Part shown: positions 17,916 to 28,069 of the stretch, one piece after another | Layout of the letters: every line of letters begins with the position of its first letter | Position numbering within the stretch: the first letter of the stretch is position 1 | NCBI GenBank assembly: GCA_029979505.1 | Contig: JAPOHH010000009.1 | Location: 1 to 40,319 of the forward strand | Source of the DNA: a bacterium | GTDB taxonomy: Bacteria > Pseudomonadota > Gammaproteobacteria > GCA-002705445 > GCA-002716945 | Length of the DNA: 40,319 nt | Reading direction: 5' to 3' | The notes under the pieces: generated by a model | What the model was told of the DNA's origin: nothing | Seen by the model: the letters and a program-made list of their open reading frames with translations, nothing else | The model's database searches: none | Position numbers and translations under genes: made by a program

Positions 17916-18691
17916 TGGATATATTAAATATAATAATTTTATCACTGATACAAGGTATTACTGAGTTTTTACCAATATCAAGTAGTTCACATTTAATTCT
18001 TATTCCGATAATAACGGATTATCCTGATCAAGGTATTATGTTTGACATAGCCCTTCACACAGGTTCTTTGTTAGCAGTATTAATGTATTACAAAGAAGAC
18101 ATAAAAAAAATATTAATGCTATCTAATCATGGCAAAGATTTAATTAGACTAATTATAGTAGGGTCAATACCTCTCCCTATAGCTGGGTTAATTATGGTTA
18201 GCTTTGTTGAATATAATTTAAGGACTGTTGAAGTGATTGCATTGATGACAATTAGTTTTGCATTGTTATTATTTTTTGCAGATAAGAACTCTAAATATAA
18301 TATGAACATTTCTGATATATCATTAAAGGCAATATCAATTATAGGTTTATTCCAGATATTAGCTCTCGTACCAGGTGTATCTAGATCGGGTATCGTAATT
18401 ACGGCGGCATTATTGTTAAATTATAATAGAGCTGATGCTATCAAAATTGCCTTCTTATTATCAATACCAGCCATTTTTATGGCTAGCGTTTATAATATTT
18501 ATGATTTAGCAAATACTCAAGCTATTGACATCTATGCAGAACACTTTATTGGTATGATATTATCTTTATTGTTTTCATATATTACAATACATTTATTTAT
18601 AACCACTATAAATAAAGTTAATTTCACACCATACATACTGTATAGAATTATATTAGGAACTATACTTTTGACTTTTCTAAGTATTCTTTAA
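17915..18691 (+). CDS. uppP: Undecaprenyl-diphosphatase (BacA/UppP)
   Basis: Recycles the lipid carrier of cell-wall synthesis by hydrolysing undecaprenyl pyrophosphate. The 258-aa product with about eight membrane helices has both active motifs: [14 protein letters not shown] near residue 13 and PGVSRSGIV near residue 152. It starts with GTG overlapping the midA-like stop. The last 32 bp overlap the 3' end of convergent cca. Confidence 0.96.
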
Positions 18692-19721
18692 TATGTTGTC
18701 TAGCAATATTATAATGAGCATCTTGAATAATTTTCTGTATATCTTTACCTGATTTTTTTAAATCAGTACTACATAACTTATAAATTTTGATTTTTTGTAT
18801 AAGTTCTCTAAAAAATTCTACGTATTTTGTATCTCTATTTATTATAGTAAAAAAGTTTTCAAGTCTATCTGATTTTCTAATATCTAAGTTTTTAATAATT
18901 AATATCAAGTGTGATATGGTATTTTCAGTAGGTTTATAGCTAATTATTTCCTCTTTACTTTTGTTTAATAATGATGCGAGATCTTTATACTCATTTGGTA
19001 CTTTCAATTTATCACAAAAAACAGTTAGATTATCAATGCATTTGTGCATAAATAAAGAAATACTTAATAACTTGTTTAAGTCATCAATGAAATAATCTGA
19101 AACTTGTTTATAACCAGGGAAAATATATTCAACATCCAAGTCCTCAAGATTTCTTAAAAATAGAAAAGGGTTATTCGATTTATAAAGCTCTAACCAAATT
19201 CTTTCTCCTGTGAGATAATCTAATTCTCCACTTTCTTTGATATTTTTTATTTCGTTAATAGTTTCTCTGGCTATTTGAAAATTTTTCAAGTTAGTTTTGA
19301 ATCTTGCAATTCTTAAGACTCTTAAAGGGTCTTCCGAAAATGCATGAGATACATGTTTTAATTGTTTTTTTTCGATATCTTTTTGGCCATTAAATGGGTC
19401 AATTAAATTCCCATTATCATCTTGAGCAATTGCATTAATAGTTAAATCTCTCCTTTCAAGGTCCTCTTCAAGGGTAATTTTGCTATTAATATTGAAGTTA
19501 AAACCTGTATAACCATGTCCAGATTTTCTCTCTGTTCTGGCCAATGCATATTCTTCACCAGTTTTAGGATGAATAAATACTGGAAAATCTTTACCAACTT
19601 GCTTAAAACCTTTCGATAGCATCTCTTCTGGCGAAGATCCAACAACTACCCAATCTCTCTCCTTTGGCTCTAAACCCAAAAGTTTATCTCTTACTGCTCC
19701 GCCTACTAAATAGATTTTCAT
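18660..19721 (-). CDS. cca: CCA tRNA nucleotidyltransferase, HD domain reduced
   Basis: Adds or repairs the 3' CCA of tRNAs. The N-terminal polymerase head is intact: [16 protein letters not shown], the metal-binding pair in [19 protein letters not shown], and the [12 protein letters not shown] motif. At 353 aa it is well short of E. coli Cca (412). The region corresponding to the E. coli HD phosphohydrolase keeps its [14 protein letters not shown] helix but lacks the HD-motif segment before it. It overlaps the upstream NDUFA9-like gene by 1 bp and convergent uppP by 32 bp. Confidence 0.93.
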
Positions 19722-21171: not shown

Positions 21172-21525
21172 TTAAAAAATTGTACAGCCATATATTTTAA
21201 TATCTTCATCTTGCATACCCAGTACGAGTCTACCTAAGTACTCGCCAGGTACAGATTCGCTAACTTGTTTAAATAAGACTGTTACATAATCGTCTCTTTT
21301 TAAACAACCAAGAGCACTATAATCGGGTGCTAGTTTAGCTAAAATTGGGCTATTAGCCCACTGTTTACCAAGGGTGACTTCATCAGCTCCCATTAGCATT
21401 TTTTTTGAAAAGTTCTTTGTAAACCCACCGTAGTCTTTATTATTAGAAGTTCTAATTAAATCTTCCCACAGTGGGTTTGCAATATCTATTATCTCTTGAT
21501 CTGATAGTTCTAATAGATTAGCCAT
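21172..21525 (-). CDS. Small protein of unknown function after aprA (NTF2/SnoaL-like fold suspected)
   Basis: A 117-aa soluble protein with no signal peptide or membrane segment. I do not recognise a named family. The pattern of an acidic N-terminal helix (IIDIANPLWEDLIRTSNNKDY), a FTKNFSKKML helix, then alternating strands ending YLGRLVLGMQDEDIKIYGCTIF resembles small NTF2/SnoaL-like alpha+beta proteins; this is a shape argument only. Cysteines are at about positions 74 and 114. It starts 8 bp after the aprA stop and ends 6 bp before the phosphoesterase, so it is almost certainly cotranscribed with aprMBA. Confidence 0.75.
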   Translation of the reverse strand: MANLLELSDQEIIDIANPLWEDLIRTSNNKDYGGFTKNFSKKMLMGADEVTLGKQWANSPILAKLAPDYSALGCLKRDDYVTVLFKQVSESVPGEYLGRLVLGMQDEDIKIYGCTIF

Positions 21526-21533
21526 TATCTATC

Positions 21534-23387
21534 TCAAGAAACTTTTTCTGTCTCTTCATCCACAATGTGATAAAGAGGAGCTTTTTCGCATGTAAACTTA
21601 CCTGTTTTTGGATCTCTTCTTGAGACTGTTAGACAGTGCCAATTATCATCATCCAGTTTTAGGAAATCACCACGATAGTAATAACCTGGCCAACGTGTTT
21701 CTTCACGGAACAATGTATGTTCACAAACACATTGTGAAACAAGTGTTCTATGTTTTAGTTCCCATGCTCTCATTAATTGATGATAATCTTCAGCACCAAT
21801 TTTTTCTAAGTCTTCTGTTAATGTATCAAGTAACTGAAGTCCTCGTTTAAGCATATTTCCATTGGTCATATAGTTTGTCCCAATTCCACCTGCATAGTCA
21901 TCCATTATTTTTTGAAGACGTTGGAGACCTTGAATAGGAAGTAAATAGCTTGGAGAAACTGTACCAGCTGTAATCTCATTACGACCTACAGTATAGTTTT
22001 CAAGAGGTTTATAAACTTCTTCTTTATATTTCTCTATTTGGCTATCTGAGACTCTAATGCCAACAGCTTTTTGATCTTGTATGTATTTTACAGCTGCTTT
22101 GGCACATAATCTTCCTTCGGTAAATGAACCAGATGAGAATGCATGAGCAGTTCCACCGGCAGCATCACCTGCAGCAAACAGACCGTCTACAGTCATCATA
22201 CGGTTATAACCCCAGAAATACTCAGGAGGAGAAAGATCTTCAGGACCACTACACCATGCACCTGAACATGTTGCATGCGAACCCATGACATAAGGTTCGG
22301 ATGTTGTAAGTTCTGGGTTTTGGTATTTAGGATCAATATCTTGAGCCGCCCATACAACAGCTTGCCCAACAGTCATTCCTAAAAAGTTTTCCCAACCAAT
22401 TTCCTCAAGATGAGGATCTTGGAATGCTTCCATTGTTACCATATGTATTGGACCGCCACCTGCAATTGTCTCTTGAATAAATGCATGATTTCTAAGACAT
22501 GTTGGTGTTGGAACATGATCTAAGTAATCACCAACGATTGCTTTTGTGTTGTCGTACCACTTTTTCTCATAGTTTTCACCAGCTGCGTTTTGAGTATATG
22601 TTTTTAAATGCAGAAAGTACGCGCCAACAGGTCCATAACCATCTTTGAATCTGGTTAACACAATTCTATTTTCCATTTGCGTCATTTTTGCGCCAACAGC
22701 AATAGGTAGAGCATATGCTGAACCATTACTCCAAGGAGCGTACCATGTACGACCCATACCCTCACCGACAGATCTTGGTTTAAAGATGTGTGATGCACCA
22801 CCTGCGGCACACACTACAGCTTTTGCTCTAAAGACATGGAATTCACCTGTACGCATATTAAATCCACACGCACCACCAATTCTATTTTCTTTAGCCTCAT
22901 CCATAAGTAAATGAGTGACCATTACTCTATTATAAATTTTATCAGCTGACTTTTTAGCAGCTTCGGCAACTATTGGTTTATAGCTCTCGCCATGTATCAT
23001 AATTTGCCATTTTCCTTCTCTTTGGTAACGTCCTGTCTCTTTATTTCTCATAAGCGGTAATCCCCACTCTTCGAACATATGTACAGCAGAATCAACGTGT
23101 CGAGCCATATCATAAGCTAGATCTTCACGTACCATTCCCATTAAATCATTTCTTGCATATCTTACATGATCTTCAGGAGCGTTTTCACCCCATTGCATAC
23201 CCATGTAACAGTTAATAGCATATAGACCTTGTGCAACAGCGCCACTTCTATCAATGTTTGCTTTTTCAGCAACAATAATTTTCATGTCTTTGCCCCAGTA
23301 TCTTGCTTCAAAGGCAGCGCCTGTACCAGCCATACCTCCACCTACAACAAGAATGTCGCAATCTTCATAATGTGTTTTTCTAGCCAT
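21534..23387 (-). CDS. aprA: Adenylylsulfate (APS) reductase alpha subunit
   Basis: FAD subunit of dissimilatory APS reductase, here most likely running in the oxidative direction (sulfite + AMP to APS) in the cytoplasm. The 617-aa product has the FAD motif DILVVGGGMAGTGAAFEARYW at the N-terminus, IAEKANIDRSGAVAQGLYAIN-type flavin contacts, AAGDAAGGTAHAFSSGSFTEGR near residue 405, and RTLVSQCVCEHTLFREETRWPGYYYRGD near the C-terminus. It overlaps aprB by one base. The neighbouring aprM places it with sulfur-oxidiser Apr systems that use this anchor rather than QmoABC. Confidence 0.97.
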   Translation of the reverse strand: MARKTHYEDCDILVVGGGMAGTGAAFEARYWGKDMKIIVAEKANIDRSGAVAQGLYAINCYMGMQWGENAPEDHVRYARNDLMGMVREDLAYDMARHVDSAVHMFEEWGLPLMRNKETGRYQREGKWQIMIHGESYKPIVAEAAKKSADKIYNRVMVTHLLMDEAKENRIGGACGFNMRTGEFHVFRAKAVVCAAGGASHIFKPRSVGEGMGRTWYAPWSNGSAYALPIAVGAKMTQMENRIVLTRFKDGYGPVGAYFLHLKTYTQNAAGENYEKKWYDNTKAIVGDYLDHVPTPTCLRNHAFIQETIAGGGPIHMVTMEAFQDPHLEEIGWENFLGMTVGQAVVWAAQDIDPKYQNPELTTSEPYVMGSHATCSGAWCSGPEDLSPPEYFWGYNRMMTVDGLFAAGDAAGGTAHAFSSGSFTEGRLCAKAAVKYIQDQKAVGIRVSDSQIEKYKEEVYKPLENYTVGRNEITAGTVSPSYLLPIQGLQRLQKIMDDYAGGIGTNYMTNGNMLKRGLQLLDTLTEDLEKIGAEDYHQLMRAWELKHRTLVSQCVCEHTLFREETRWPGYYYRGDFLKLDDDNWHCLTVSRRDPKTGKFTCEKAPLYHIVDEETEKVS

Positions 23388-23878
23388 TAGTAATAAACTC
23401 CCTGTTTTAGTTTACCGATTTTTTGCATTTCTGGTAAACCGTCATTAGCTGTAGCGATTTCTCCAGTTTTTAGATATTTAGGTTCGTTATAAAGAAGCTC
23501 ACCATCATATACATCTTTACTTGGAGATGGTTCAGCTGCTAGTTCTGGAATATATTCACCCCATGGTTTGGTTGTTATAGGTGAGCAAAAGTTTTTCTCT
23601 GTTCCATTTCTGAACTTAATCTTCCATGAAATTGTTCCTTTTTCCTCTTCGCGCAGAGCTCTGACACTGTGCCCTAATGGTGAAAAATCTGCGTATCCAC
23701 GAGCATCAATAGCATTTTGATCACAAGCTTTTACACATGAGTAACACTCCCAACACATATTAGGTTCAATGTTTACTGCACGTCTTAATGTTTTATCAAT
23801 GTGCATGATGTCTGATGGGCAAATATCTACGCACATACCACATCCATCACATCTGGTCATATATACAAAAGTTGACAT
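23387..23878 (-). CDS. aprB: Adenylylsulfate (APS) reductase beta subunit
   Basis: Electron-transfer subunit with two [4Fe-4S] clusters. The 163-aa product has two cysteine clusters: CDGCGMCVDICP and CWECYSCVKACDQ. A C-terminal tail wraps round AprA in known structures. It takes electrons from the AprA flavin and probably hands them to AprM. The ATG has a Shine-Dalgarno (GGAGA) upstream. Confidence 0.97.
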   Translation of the reverse strand: MSTFVYMTRCDGCGMCVDICPSDIMHIDKTLRRAVNIEPNMCWECYSCVKACDQNAIDARGYADFSPLGHSVRALREEEKGTISWKIKFRNGTEKNFCSPITTKPWGEYIPELAAEPSPSKDVYDGELLYNEPKYLKTGEIATANDGLPEMQKIGKLKQGVYY

Positions 23879-23907: not shown

Positions 23908-24699
23908 TTAATAATTTTTTGGTGACTCACGTCTTATACCCAACCCAAATTGTTTTGGTTTATCAGCTGGCGAAGGTAAATTACTATTTGAACCATCAGC
24001 CTCAGCTAAGTGTTTTTGTATCGCTGCTCCAGGTTTGTAAAACATATGAGCAAATTTAGACCAATACACTCCCCCAAACAAAACAACGTTTGAAACAATA
24101 AATAATATTAAAAATAGGTCGCTTAAAGCTGAGCCAGCTCCTTGTGTTATAGACCAGAGTAGAGCAGTTGATTGCGATGCTAATAAAGCTAGCACAAATA
24201 AGTCAGCAAACATTACATGATACCAAGGGTGTCCTTCAGCTGATACGTTAACTCTGATTGAAAACCAAAACCAAAATCCGCCGACACATGTCATGAGTGC
24301 GCCAATATGCCATAGCATTGGAAGCATAGAGGGTGCTGATGATGATGGTGTTGAGTAACTAAAAATCAACATAGCTGATGTAACCCAAAAAATTATTGTG
24401 CCATACATTCCCAAAAGGTGAGCTGCACGACGTTGAAATGTGCAAAATTCAGATGATGTCATAATATCTGATGCAACTGTTTTGGATATTATTGCAATTT
24501 TTTCGCCTGATGATAATTCTCTTGTTGCAGATTTTTTGGCTTTTTGTGCGTTTTCAAAAAAGTATTTAACATTCTTTTTATGCATCATGTCTAATACCAC
24601 TCCACCTATCACTAAAAGAACCATTGCAATTAAAAAGGCTTGCATAGCAAAAGACGGTATGAATGCACCTAAATCTGAAAATGGATTGTAAGCTAGCAT
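23908..24699 (-). CDS. aprM: AprM, membrane anchor of APS reductase
   Basis: A 263-aa membrane protein with about six hydrophobic segments (near residues 14-36, 85-112, 120-145, 157-175 and 178-207) and histidines in the membrane region that could bind heme. Its position just before aprB and aprA is the defining feature of AprM. In sulfur oxidisers lacking QmoABC it is thought to pass electrons from AprBA to the quinone pool. The start at 24699 has a strong ribosome site (GGGAGA, plus-strand 24705-24710). Own promoter and palindrome lie upstream. Confidence 0.88.
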   Translation of the reverse strand: MLAYNPFSDLGAFIPSFAMQAFLIAMVLLVIGGVVLDMMHKKNVKYFFENAQKAKKSATRELSSGEKIAIISKTVASDIMTSSEFCTFQRRAAHLLGMYGTIIFWVTSAMLIFSYSTPSSSAPSMLPMLWHIGALMTCVGGFWFWFSIRVNVSAEGHPWYHVMFADLFVLALLASQSTALLWSITQGAGSALSDLFLILFIVSNVVLFGGVYWSKFAHMFYKPGAAIQKHLAEADGSNSNLPSPADKPKQFGLGIRRESPKNY

Positions 24700-24835: not shown

Positions 24836-26038
24836 TCAGCCTTTTTGTTGATAGTAAGTCATCAAAATCTCTGCCACCTCTTTCCTCGCAAATTCTGGAG
24901 GTAATTCTTGTCCAGCAGCAAGCATTTCTCTTACTTTTGTGCCAGATAGAAGAACAAAATCATCTTTCGTATGATCTTTAGCATCTCTCATCATAACTAC
25001 TTCATTTAGTTTTTTTGAATAAGCTGTGTGATCGGCTTTAAATATCTCAATTTTTAATGAATCTTTGACTACATCCTGATTAAAAATATCTTGAGCACCA
25101 AATGGCTCATAATAATCACCGACTCCGGCGTGATCACGCCCAACTATGAGATGTGTACATCCTGCGTTTTGTCTAAAAACTGCATGAAGCAAAGCTTCTC
25201 TTGGCCCAGCGTACATCATATCAAAACCAAAACCTGAGATGATGGCTGTATTTTCTTGGAAGTAAATTTCAACCATTTTCCTGATTGCTGCATCTCTTAC
25301 ATCTCCTGGTATATCTCCTTCTTTTAGTTTACCAAGTGTCATATGTATGAGCACTCCATCAGCCTGAAGTCTATCAAGAGCCATTTTGCATAGCTCTTCA
25401 TGTGCTCTATGCATAGGGTTTCTTGTTTGAAATGCAACTGTCTTAGACCAGCCCGCTTTAGTAAGCATTTCTCTTATTTGAGGAGCTGTAGCAAATGTTT
25501 CTGGAAAGTCTGAAGGAAAATAACTGTAATTTAAGACTTCTATTGATCCAGAAATTATATACCTCCCTTGGTCCTTGAAAGCTTTCACACCTGGATGATC
25601 ATTATCATTAGTGCCAAATACGTTCGTCACGATAATGTCAATGTCATCATCACTAAGTTTTTCTACATTTTCAACACGTTGGATGGCTATGACTGGGTTG
25701 CCATCAACATTTGGATCTTTAAGCGCAATCTCTTCTCCATGAGTGTAATCTAGGGAATTAGCATCAGTCGTTAGATTGACTATAGGAACTGGCCAAAACA
25801 AATTATCCAAAGTAAGCATTTCCTTAGAAACTCTGAGAGCTTCTTCTTTGTTCATATACCCTGTTAACGGATTAAAATAGCCTGCACCTAACATAACTGC
25901 ATTCGCAGCAGCAGCTGAAGATATTTCTAAAGTTCGCATCTCAGCAGCAGCTGAGAGCATTGATGCGCGAGCTAGATCGTCCTCTATATATAAAGTATTT
26001 AATTCATTTGAGCCATGAGGCATTATCAGATTAGTCAT
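24836..26038 (-). CDS. sat: Sulfate adenylyltransferase (dissimilatory ATP sulfurylase)
   Basis: In sulfur oxidation it converts APS + pyrophosphate to ATP + sulfate, a substrate-level phosphorylation. The 400-aa single-subunit Sat has an N-terminal PUA-like domain with MLGAGYFNPLTGYMN. The active-site motifs are QTRNPMHRAHE (204-214) with the HxxH-type histidines, and GRDHAG (300-305). It lacks an APS-kinase domain. It is 136 bp upstream of aprM on the same strand, divergent from the PEPCK-like gene, and apparently has its own promoter. Confidence 0.97.
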   Translation of the reverse strand: MTNLIMPHGSNELNTLYIEDDLARASMLSAAAEMRTLEISSAAAANAVMLGAGYFNPLTGYMNKEEALRVSKEMLTLDNLFWPVPIVNLTTDANSLDYTHGEEIALKDPNVDGNPVIAIQRVENVEKLSDDDIDIIVTNVFGTNDNDHPGVKAFKDQGRYIISGSIEVLNYSYFPSDFPETFATAPQIREMLTKAGWSKTVAFQTRNPMHRAHEELCKMALDRLQADGVLIHMTLGKLKEGDIPGDVRDAAIRKMVEIYFQENTAIISGFGFDMMYAGPREALLHAVFRQNAGCTHLIVGRDHAGVGDYYEPFGAQDIFNQDVVKDSLKIEIFKADHTAYSKKLNEVVMMRDAKDHTKDDFVLLSGTKVREMLAAGQELPPEFARKEVAEILMTYYQQKG

Positions 26039-26152: not shown

Positions 26153-28069
26153 ATGGGAGAAATGTTAGAGATAAGGGAGATTTGTAAGTCTCCTAAACAG
26201 TTGCTTGAAAGTAAATCGTTTAATAGATATCTAGAATTATACAAAAAAGAATTTATTGCTGAACTTAAAAAGAGACAAGACAAAGACCTGAAAGAGGAAC
26301 TTCAACACAGGATTAGTTTTATCAAAAACCTCAAACCTAGTGATTTTATGGTTATTCTTAATGGAGTCACCCCGTTTTCGGGAGATTTACTCAGAGATTT
26401 TCGAGCAATTGTTCAATTTCTAGATGGTGCTTTTCATCACTATAGAACAAAAACATATACTAGATTGATATTTCCATTAGATAAGTCCTCTACTAACGAG
26501 AGTGCTGAATCCGTCAAAGACAAAATTTCAAGTAAAGCCGATAAATTATCTGAATTGATATTAGAAACTAGAAGATTACTTTTGGTAAAAGTAGGTCTAG
26601 GTTCAGGAATTAGACGATCCCAAGGATTAGAATGTCATCCAAATGTAGCTGTCGGAGAAATCAATGGAGAGTCAATTATGCTCCCAAATGACTATTCGTG
26701 TCTCAAAAAAGTACCAGTTACATCTACCGCGGATATGAGAACGGGTGTCTATTACACAACACATTCTAATAAACGTGCGTTCCCTTTTTTTGAATTAAAG
26801 CACAATCCATTTAAAAAACAAAAATTTAAACACGAAGAGTATATTGCAATACCTTTTGAAATTGGAGCGTGGAATATTTTGTGTTATATCCACAAAACTC
26901 CTGGATATATTGAAATTGAGCCAGGTCTGTTGAATTTATTTCCTTACTCTAAAACTAAAAATATTACTGATAAACAAGCAGATGGTATTTTTATACTAGG
27001 TTGCCCTAACTCAGGTATGGATGATTTAGGTTATTATCATGATAAGAAAAATAATTTACTAGTTGGGGTCATACCAGGATTAGATGATTGTCAATATTTT
27101 GGGTATGGAAAGAAACCTATGCTTACTCTTCATAATGTTTTGTGTATATTGAAAGGTAACCTTCCTCTCCACTGTGGTGCTACAAGATATGTAGTTCGTT
27201 TTGATGAAAAAACAAATGAGCCGTATATTTTTGATTCACTTATCAAGGCAGATGATATGGGAAGAGCTATATTGGAAAAAAATTCAGAAGGCTATGAAAT
27301 ACCATACTTTTATGGAACTGAAACTGGAGCTTTTGCATGTCTTGATGGTTTCAGTGAACATGCAAAAATGCAAATGGAAGGAAGAGAAATTGGGTACAAT
27401 AAACATTCGGGTACAAATGCAAGACAGATTGTTCCAGTAACAGACTACTCTGAAATAGCGACAGGTTCAGAATTAGATATACTCTTGTACTTAAATAACT
27501 ATGAAGTAATACCTGTTGGTGAATCATGTATGAAAGCAAACATGAGTCCCGGTGATGCTTTGGAACATTTTAGAAAAGGAGCAAGAGTTGCTGCAGGAAG
27601 TACACAGACACATCGTGGTGATGTTGAGATAAGTTATTGGGCTAATCCATTCCCTCTTCTTAAAGATAATGATTGGAAACCTCTCCCTGAGCATAAAGAT
27701 CTTTGTGAGAAATTTGAGCAGATTGAGAAACGTTTTTTTGATAACTTTCAGAAACGTGTTGAAAAAGGAGAAATGAAAATTGGCGTAGCGCACAGCATGT
27801 TGATGGCAGGAGTGTATAAAGAAAGCACAGATCAAGTTTTAAAAGATGGGGGTTTTCGAGATAGAGAATTAGTTGAACATCATGGACCAGAAAGGGCTGC
27901 ACATGATATGATTGAACTCATTAAAGAAGCTGCTATTGATAAAAGAAAAAGGTTGGATAGTAATTTAAAAGAGGTAGATATTACAATCGCCACGATTGGT
28001 GACAGTCGGACTGGTAAATCAGAAATGGCTGAAAAAATGGATGGCGTGCTTAATATGAGTTTGATTTAA
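26153..28069 (+). CDS. PEP carboxykinase-like protein with a C-terminal P-loop
   Basis: A 638-aa cytoplasmic protein, longer than ATP-dependent PEP carboxykinase (about 540). The middle aligns by eye with PckA: Y315, K321, H340 (LPLHCGAT), D367/D368 (KADD) and R424 (NARQIVP) sit like Y207, K213, H232, D268/D269 and R333 of the E. coli enzyme, and the K-to-H spacing is the same (19). Between H340 and D367 the stretch is about 9 residues shorter and has no Walker A. A perfect Walker A, GDSRTGKS (616-623), ends the protein after strand DITIATI and resembles the HPr-kinase form GxSxxGKSE. The N-terminal 190 residues are helical and unlike PckA. Whether it is a carboxykinase, a kinase or a sensor is unknown. 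A GGGG ribosome site precedes the ATG; a second ATG lies at 26162. Confidence 0.72.
   Translation: MGEMLEIREICKSPKQLLESKSFNRYLELYKKEFIAELKKRQDKDLKEELQHRISFIKNLKPSDFMVILNGVTPFSGDLLRDFRAIVQFLDGAFHHYRTKTYTRLIFPLDKSSTNESAESVKDKISSKADKLSELILETRRLLLVKVGLGSGIRRSQGLECHPNVAVGEINGESIMLPNDYSCLKKVPVTSTADMRTGVYYTTHSNKRAFPFFELKHNPFKKQKFKHEEYIAIPFEIGAWNILCYIHKTPGYIEIEPGLLNLFPYSKTKNITDKQADGIFILGCPNSGMDDLGYYHDKKNNLLVGVIPGLDDCQYFGYGKKPMLTLHNVLCILKGNLPLHCGATRYVVRFDEKTNEPYIFDSLIKADDMGRAILEKNSEGYEIPYFYGTETGAFACLDGFSEHAKMQMEGREIGYNKHSGTNARQIVPVTDYSEIATGSELDILLYLNNYEVIPVGESCMKANMSPGDALEHFRKGARVAAGSTQTHRGDVEISYWANPFPLLKDNDWKPLPEHKDLCEKFEQIEKRFFDNFQKRVEKGEMKIGVAHSMLMAGVYKESTDQVLKDGGFRDRELVEHHGPERAAHDMIELIKEAAIDKRKRLDSNLKEVDITIATIGDSRTGKSEMAEKMDGVLNMSLI

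Follow-up and report, generated by a model that had tools for sequence, protein, structure and literature searches.

The window, by which we mean the whole stretch of 40,319 nucleotides that was analyzed, harbors an open reading frame for a protein of 638 amino acids, which lies divergently to a sulfate adenylyltransferase gene and a set of apr genes:

26153 to 28069, plus strand: gene of the predicted PEPCK-fold protein with a C-terminal P-loop, 638 amino acids, ATG start, stop codon included (identified as open reading frame and by its homologs)
24836 to 26038, minus strand: sat, sulfate adenylyltransferase, the divergent neighbor (TIGR00339 above cut-off)
23908 to 24699, minus strand: gene of an aprM-like membrane protein (named from its position only, no NCBIfam match)
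23387 to 23878, minus strand: aprB (TIGR02060 above cut-off)
21534 to 23387, minus strand: aprA (TIGR02061 above cut-off)

The order of the gene, divergent sat, the aprM-like gene, aprB and aprA was kept in the window and in eight loci of related genomes, and was absent from a tenth contig (L033). Outside the window's family the gene is flanked by unrelated neighbors (valyl-tRNA synthetase, leucyl aminopeptidase, CBS proteins etc., named by eye). These neighbors are not shared, by which a split enzyme with a partner subunit was ruled out. The link to sat suggested by the earlier note thus holds as adjacency within the window's family and as co-occurrence with AprA in nearly all carrier genomes (see below), but the adjacency is lost in other families. 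Elsewhere in the window, a 117-aa protein conserved in the family and without Pfam match is encoded beside aprA (21172-21525), a single frame at 13190-14341 matches a fatty acid desaturase at its N-terminus and a DDE_Tnp_ISL3 transposase at its C-terminus, and the CCA tRNA nucleotidyltransferase at 18660-19721 shares no more than 58-59% identity with its counterparts in genomes of the same genus, the adjoining genes reaching mostly 88-99%.

Scans of the 638-aa protein against Pfam and NCBIfam gave nothing above cut-off. The ATP-type model PEPCK_ATP (PF01293) matched a stretch at residues 313-344 with 10.5 bits, below the Pfam cut-off of 26.5 bits, and weak matches to it were found in 2 of 18 family members. 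Neither GTP-PEPCK (PF00821) nor the C-terminal model of HprK appeared in the Pfam scan up to an E value of 10. No meaningful match to the protein or to the family profile was found among PDB sequences, nor was a PPi-PEPCK (EC 4.1.1.38) matched within this set.

A PEPCK fold of the protein is supported by structure prediction. The AlphaFold2 model was calculated from 28 sequences (pLDDT 82, pTM 0.82). In the Foldseek search with this model PEPCKs ranked first (E 7e-12 to 1ytm), and VIA aligned 331-350 residues with ATP-PEPCKs (Z about 15-16, 3.6-4.5 A, 11-13% identity), whereby residues of about 170-597 of the model corresponded to about 6-470 of E. coli PckA. The PckA fold implied by the earlier note is supported by the predicted structures. 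Neither PPi-PEPCK nor HprK was among the top 50 structural matches listed by VIA, a listing that does not argue against a kinship to either. A second model, made from a 53%-identical homolog, gave Z 11-12 against ATP-PEPCKs. In both models, the C-terminal stretch was predicted to form a 9-residue strand of the sheet and, after it, the P-loop and a helix. The strand comprises residues 607-615 of the window protein (pLDDT 92 for the block 601-610) and directly precedes the Walker A motif GDSRTGKS at 616-623, as had been proposed. The P-loop and the last helix were modeled with reduced confidence in the window protein (block means 76, 62 and 52), and with higher block means of 84, 79 and 60 in the homolog. 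The following features were located on the gene:

26153 to 26647, plus strand: residues 1-165, N-terminal and mostly helical, beyond the part aligned to solved PEPCKs, conservation below that of the rest
27095 to 27172, plus strand: residues 315-340, YFGYGKK...H, aligned with Y207-H232 of E. coli PckA (substrate and metal ligands)
27173 to 27250, plus strand: residues 341-366, interval between the His and the Asp pair without the canonical strand-P-loop-helix unit (spacing, alignment)
27251 to 27256, plus strand: D367-D368, Asp pair in the motif KADDMG, likely metal ligands, register against D268/D269 of PckA ambiguous (conservation, alignment)
27422 to 27424, plus strand: R424, aligned with the substrate Arg R333 of E. 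coli PckA
27965 to 28066, plus strand: residues 605-638, the putatively relocated segment of strand, Walker A and helix up to the protein end (models, re-insertion test)
27998 to 28021, plus strand: residues 616-623, Walker A GDSRTGKS, invariant in the family and followed by the invariant E624 (homolog alignment)

Profile alignment by hhalign paired Y315, K320, K321, H340 and R424 of the window protein with Y207, K212, K213, H232 and R333 of E. coli PckA, respectively. Global or greedy settings produced meaningless registers, which were discarded. Y315, K321, H340 and R424 are invariant in the 28-sequence alignment, and the numbering of PckA (Y207, K213, H232, K254, T255, D268/D269, R333) was correct on NP_417862. 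Hence, the pairs which the earlier note had drawn for these four residues were recovered, as was the equal distance of 19 between Lys and His in both proteins. The position of the Asp pair at D367/D368 was likewise right. Its pairing with D268/D269 is uncertain, as hhalign placed it opposite D274/D275 of PckA in a register that the sequence leaves ambiguous. The interval between His and Asp comprises 27 residues in the window protein versus 36 in PckA, in accordance with the previously estimated difference of about 9.

Full-length homologs and two further fragments were found in the window's GTDB family, with identities of 66-91% in alignment A1 save for one member of 53%. A profile search of 369 gammaproteobacterial genomes revealed the gene or a remnant of it in 19 genomes from 13 genera, the members beyond the window's family sharing 51-55% identity with the window protein. 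All 28 sequences of alignment A3, with identities down to 51-53%, end 13-15 residues past the invariant GDSRTGKS; these aligned members are full-length homologs with a C-terminal GDSRTGKSE and without an internal P-loop. None of the 15 members that were scanned contained a second Walker A motif. Residues 616-628 are 96% conserved versus 73% for the whole protein and belong to the most conserved 13-residue windows. The observation lies far beyond chance, the C-terminal motif being invariant in 28 homologs, and the earlier proposal thereby withstood its own refuting condition of a poorly conserved C-terminal Walker A. A search for viral or phage homologs gave none. In a different genus, the copy of genome G462 (L066 4556-6531) contains a frameshift, and that of G594 (L067 7846-8148) consists of an N-terminal remnant; both genomes have kept AprA and PEP carboxylase.

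The only plasmid match was a 569-aa protein of Limosilactobacillus fermentum, AYP99509.1 (P0002), which is annotated as phosphoenolpyruvate carboxykinase and shares 26% identity with the window protein over 484 columns (BLAST, E 3e-36; hhalign 99.9%). When AYP99509.1 was searched in 398 genomes of the window's phylum, the window protein was the only strong match. Its relationship to ATP-PEPCK is indicated by a PF01293 match of 23.9 bits, just below the cut-off of 26.5 bits, and by hhalign (94.8%). According to hhalign, AYP99509.1 keeps the same catalytic set as the window protein and exhibits the same 6-residue shift of the Asp pair relative to PckA, its interval between His and Asp amounting to 49 residues. 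For R65 of PckA the alignment did not pick a single equivalent; R155 and R208 are both common to the window protein and AYP99509.1. The 252-kb L. fermentum 'plasmid' CP033373.1 (L071, L079) carries ylqF, ribonuclease HII and dprA near the PEPCK relative and, on account of these housekeeping-type genes, may be a chromosomal piece labeled as plasmid.

In AYP99509.1 the P-loop GDSGAGKSE occupies the canonical site within the chain, between the His and the Asp pair, as part of a unit of the sequence TVVFFGDSGAGKSES. In the family of the window protein the flanking strands are kept at the internal site and the unit is gone, while the protein end carries VDITIATIGDSRTGKSE. A second local BLAST match indeed joined residues 609-638 of the window protein with 352-381 of AYP99509.1. 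For the re-insertion test, residues 605-638 were excised, put back at each position and scored against AYP99509.1. Among 605 insertion positions the optimum lay after residue 350, with a score of 411 versus 347 for the native sequence. One hundred shuffled segments placed at 335-375 yielded 370 +/- 5 (maximum 387), and other segments of the window protein reached at most 377. The optimum was located between the His and the Asp pair in all 28 family members. In hhalign comparisons with four ATP-PEPCKs, insertion after residue 345 raised the probability from 6% (E 6e-3) to 92% (E 8e-7), whereas insertion points outside about 340-380 gave 6-9%. With the segment re-inserted in silico, G616, S618, K622 and S623 paired with G248, S250, K254 and T255 of PckA. 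The homologs, the relative with the internal loop and the re-insertion test strongly support the relocation of a P-loop unit from the internal site to the C-terminus, as the earlier note had supposed with its segment-swapped nucleotide-binding site. Given the internal position in both PckA and AYP99509.1, the simplest view is that the C-terminal position is the derived state.

We also studied the distribution of the gene together with enzymes of sulfur and PEP metabolism. Among 27 carriers from 16 genera, counted with those that have just a remnant of the gene, 26 contained AprA above cut-off, the exception being 73% complete, and 23 a membrane pyrophosphatase. No ATP- or GTP-PEPCK was found in 25 of these carriers, one of the 27 possessing GTP-PEPCK, and PckA was absent from the window's GTDB family. 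ATP-PEPCK occurred in 92 of the 369 genomes of the class and overlapped with the gene in one (4.7 expected), an avoidance that is statistically weak (P 0.03 by genome, 0.10 by genus). PEP carboxylase was present in 20 of the 27 carriers, many of which thus have both. In the window's own genome (G000), which is 90% complete so that absences may be gaps, pyruvate kinase was detected, and no PEP carboxylase, PPDK or PEP synthase was found. Of the same-genus genomes, G000 and G008 carry the gene, and the search for PEP carboxylase gave no hit in either; G005 and G007 show the reverse, possessing PEP carboxylase and lacking the gene. In these few genomes the gene partly alternates with PEP carboxylase, and in this small sample it is distributed like an enzyme whose role overlaps that of PEP carboxylase. 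Nearly all of the genomes of G005 and G007 was examined. In both, rho-trxA-SlyD-like and sat-aprMBA are in place, aprA showing about 99% identity, and the site of the gene between sat and the SlyD-like gene is empty (158 bp at L112 15640-15797 in G005; L148 8990-9154 in G007). Both genomes thus retain apr-sat in the absence of the gene, which shows it to be dispensable for the Apr/Sat pathway.

Taking these data together, we consider it likely, with a probability of roughly two in three, that the protein is a carboxykinase acting at PEP/oxaloacetate, whose P-loop unit, transposed to the C-terminal end, makes the site complete, and which has an anaplerotic role in sulfur oxidizers. The strand-P-loop-helix unit, originally placed behind the metal-binding His and ahead of the Asp pair, would have moved to the end of the chain. 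After the helix 571-601 the chain is expected to exit the core and to turn, so that strand 607-615 could re-enter the central sheet at the vacant slot. By this, GDSRTGKS with K622 and S623 would be brought to Y315, K321, H340, D367/D368 and R424, and the loop may fill the site either within one chain or by a swap between subunits. Using ATP/ADP or PPi/Pi, the enzyme would catalyze the interconversion of PEP and oxaloacetate. In the sulfur oxidizers that carry the gene, anaplerotic carboxylation of PEP, overlapping with PEP carboxylase, would be its most likely role; the direction from PEP to oxaloacetate is favored by the PEP carboxylase pattern in these probable autotrophs. ATP/ADP is favored as donor by the Walker A motif and the kinship to ATP-PEPCK, while PPi is worth considering in view of the association with Sat and pyrophosphatases.

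As a special case of this carboxykinase, a PPi-dependent enzyme might convert PEP, CO2 and Pi to oxaloacetate and PPi. The latter would then be available both to Sat (APS + PPi -> ATP + sulfate) and to the proton-pumping pyrophosphatase, whereby carbon assimilation would be coupled to sulfite oxidation. Such an enzyme would suit the position of the gene next to sat in the window's family, the AprA and pyrophosphatase counts among the carriers, and the loop GDS..GKSE, similar to that of HprK, which itself can use PPi. Nevertheless this donor is less likely than not, as a Walker A motif serves ATP enzymes too, the family profile has no detectable similarity to any PDB entry, the adjacency to sat is lost beyond the window's family, and apr-sat is kept without the gene in G005 and G007. 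The complete chain of assumptions, i.e. a working PEPCK completed by the C-terminal P-loop of the same or a neighboring subunit, which in dissimilatory sulfur oxidizers turns PEP, CO2 and Pi into oxaloacetate and into PPi for use by Sat in sulfite oxidation, is unlikely to apply in all its parts.

A site of PEPCK type could also serve other chemistry than that of a carboxykinase, the protein being a kinase, phosphorylase or HprK-like regulator of another substrate. This would be in line with the resemblance of the loop to HprK, as judged by eye, the very divergent sequence, the lack of a curated family match and the additional N-terminal helical region, yet the PEPCK substrate residues R424, Y315 and K321 are invariant, AYP99509.1 retains the same set and the distribution is consistent with a role at the PEP/oxaloacetate node, so that we regard it as a rather improbable reading. 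Still less probable is a P-loop-free or dead enzyme with a separate nucleotide-binding or regulatory tail, whose Walker A would be unrelated to the lost loop. The low confidence of the helix past the loop would agree with such a tail, but only 15 residues follow the motif, leaving no room for a separate P-loop domain; moreover, the loss of exactly one unit is matched by the gain of exactly one, the transposed unit can be aligned with its internal counterpart in AYP99509.1 and restores the profile match, and residues 616-628 are nearly invariant. An artefact of assembly, frameshift or annotation, by which a longer protein would appear truncated, has a negligible likelihood. A frameshift was seen in one distant genome (G462) and nothing of this kind for the window, while 28 homologs, which come from many different assemblies and represent some ten families or more, show the same end, each with a stop codon behind it; by this shared end, truncation or frameshift of the window gene was ruled out.

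The preferred reading, a carboxykinase with a transposed P-loop unit, may finally be compared with known systems. ATP-PEPCK (PckA, PF01293) resembles the window protein in the fold over residues 170-597 and in the Tyr, Lys, His and Arg, which pair one to one, as do the P-loop residues after virtual transposition. It differs by its P-loop unit between His and Asp, by the lack of about 165 additional N-terminal residues and by an identity of 11-13% over the fold, the window protein remaining below the Pfam cut-off. AYP99509.1 of L. fermentum, the closest relative of the other layout, shares the motifs YFGY.KK, LTLHN, DDMG, GTETGAF and NAR..P, but contains GDSGAGKSE internally and lacks the C-terminal segment. 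PPi-PEPCK (EC 4.1.1.38), known from Entamoeba and Propionibacterium, has about double the length and the order of secondary structure elements of the ATP and GTP types; it belongs to the PEPCK superfamily and has a possible PPi link in common with the window protein. Chiba et al. are said to have found this order strictly conserved among the ATP, GTP and PPi types, and if so, the family of the window protein departs from all three. In PMC10441589, a structural comparison of PPi-PEPCK is credited to Chiba et al. 2019. In our literature search, which covered mainly open-access papers, no report on a permuted or C-terminal P-loop in the PEPCK superfamily was found. Enzymes of this superfamily are regarded as retaining the order of their structural elements.

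HprK, the HPr kinase/phosphorylase, possesses a P-loop of the form GDSxxGKSE. It has been grouped with PEPCK in one kinase family (PMC1079889). The window protein resembles it in the form of the P-loop, as judged by eye, but has no Pfam match to HprK, contains the substrate Arg and Tyr of PEPCK and differs in size and layout. In sulfur oxidizers where searches for ATP- and GTP-PEPCK, and in some cases also for PEP carboxylase, gave no match, the protein represents a candidate enzyme at the PEP/oxaloacetate node, with a possible tie to the use of PPi by Sat. A precedent for motifs in a changed chain order is given by YlqF and RsgA, circularly permuted GTPases with nucleotide-binding motifs in altered order. 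In these proteins a whole domain is permuted, whereas in the window protein a single supersecondary unit would have moved, so that an active site appears to have been rewired by transfer of the P-loop unit alone and kept in this state across many families.
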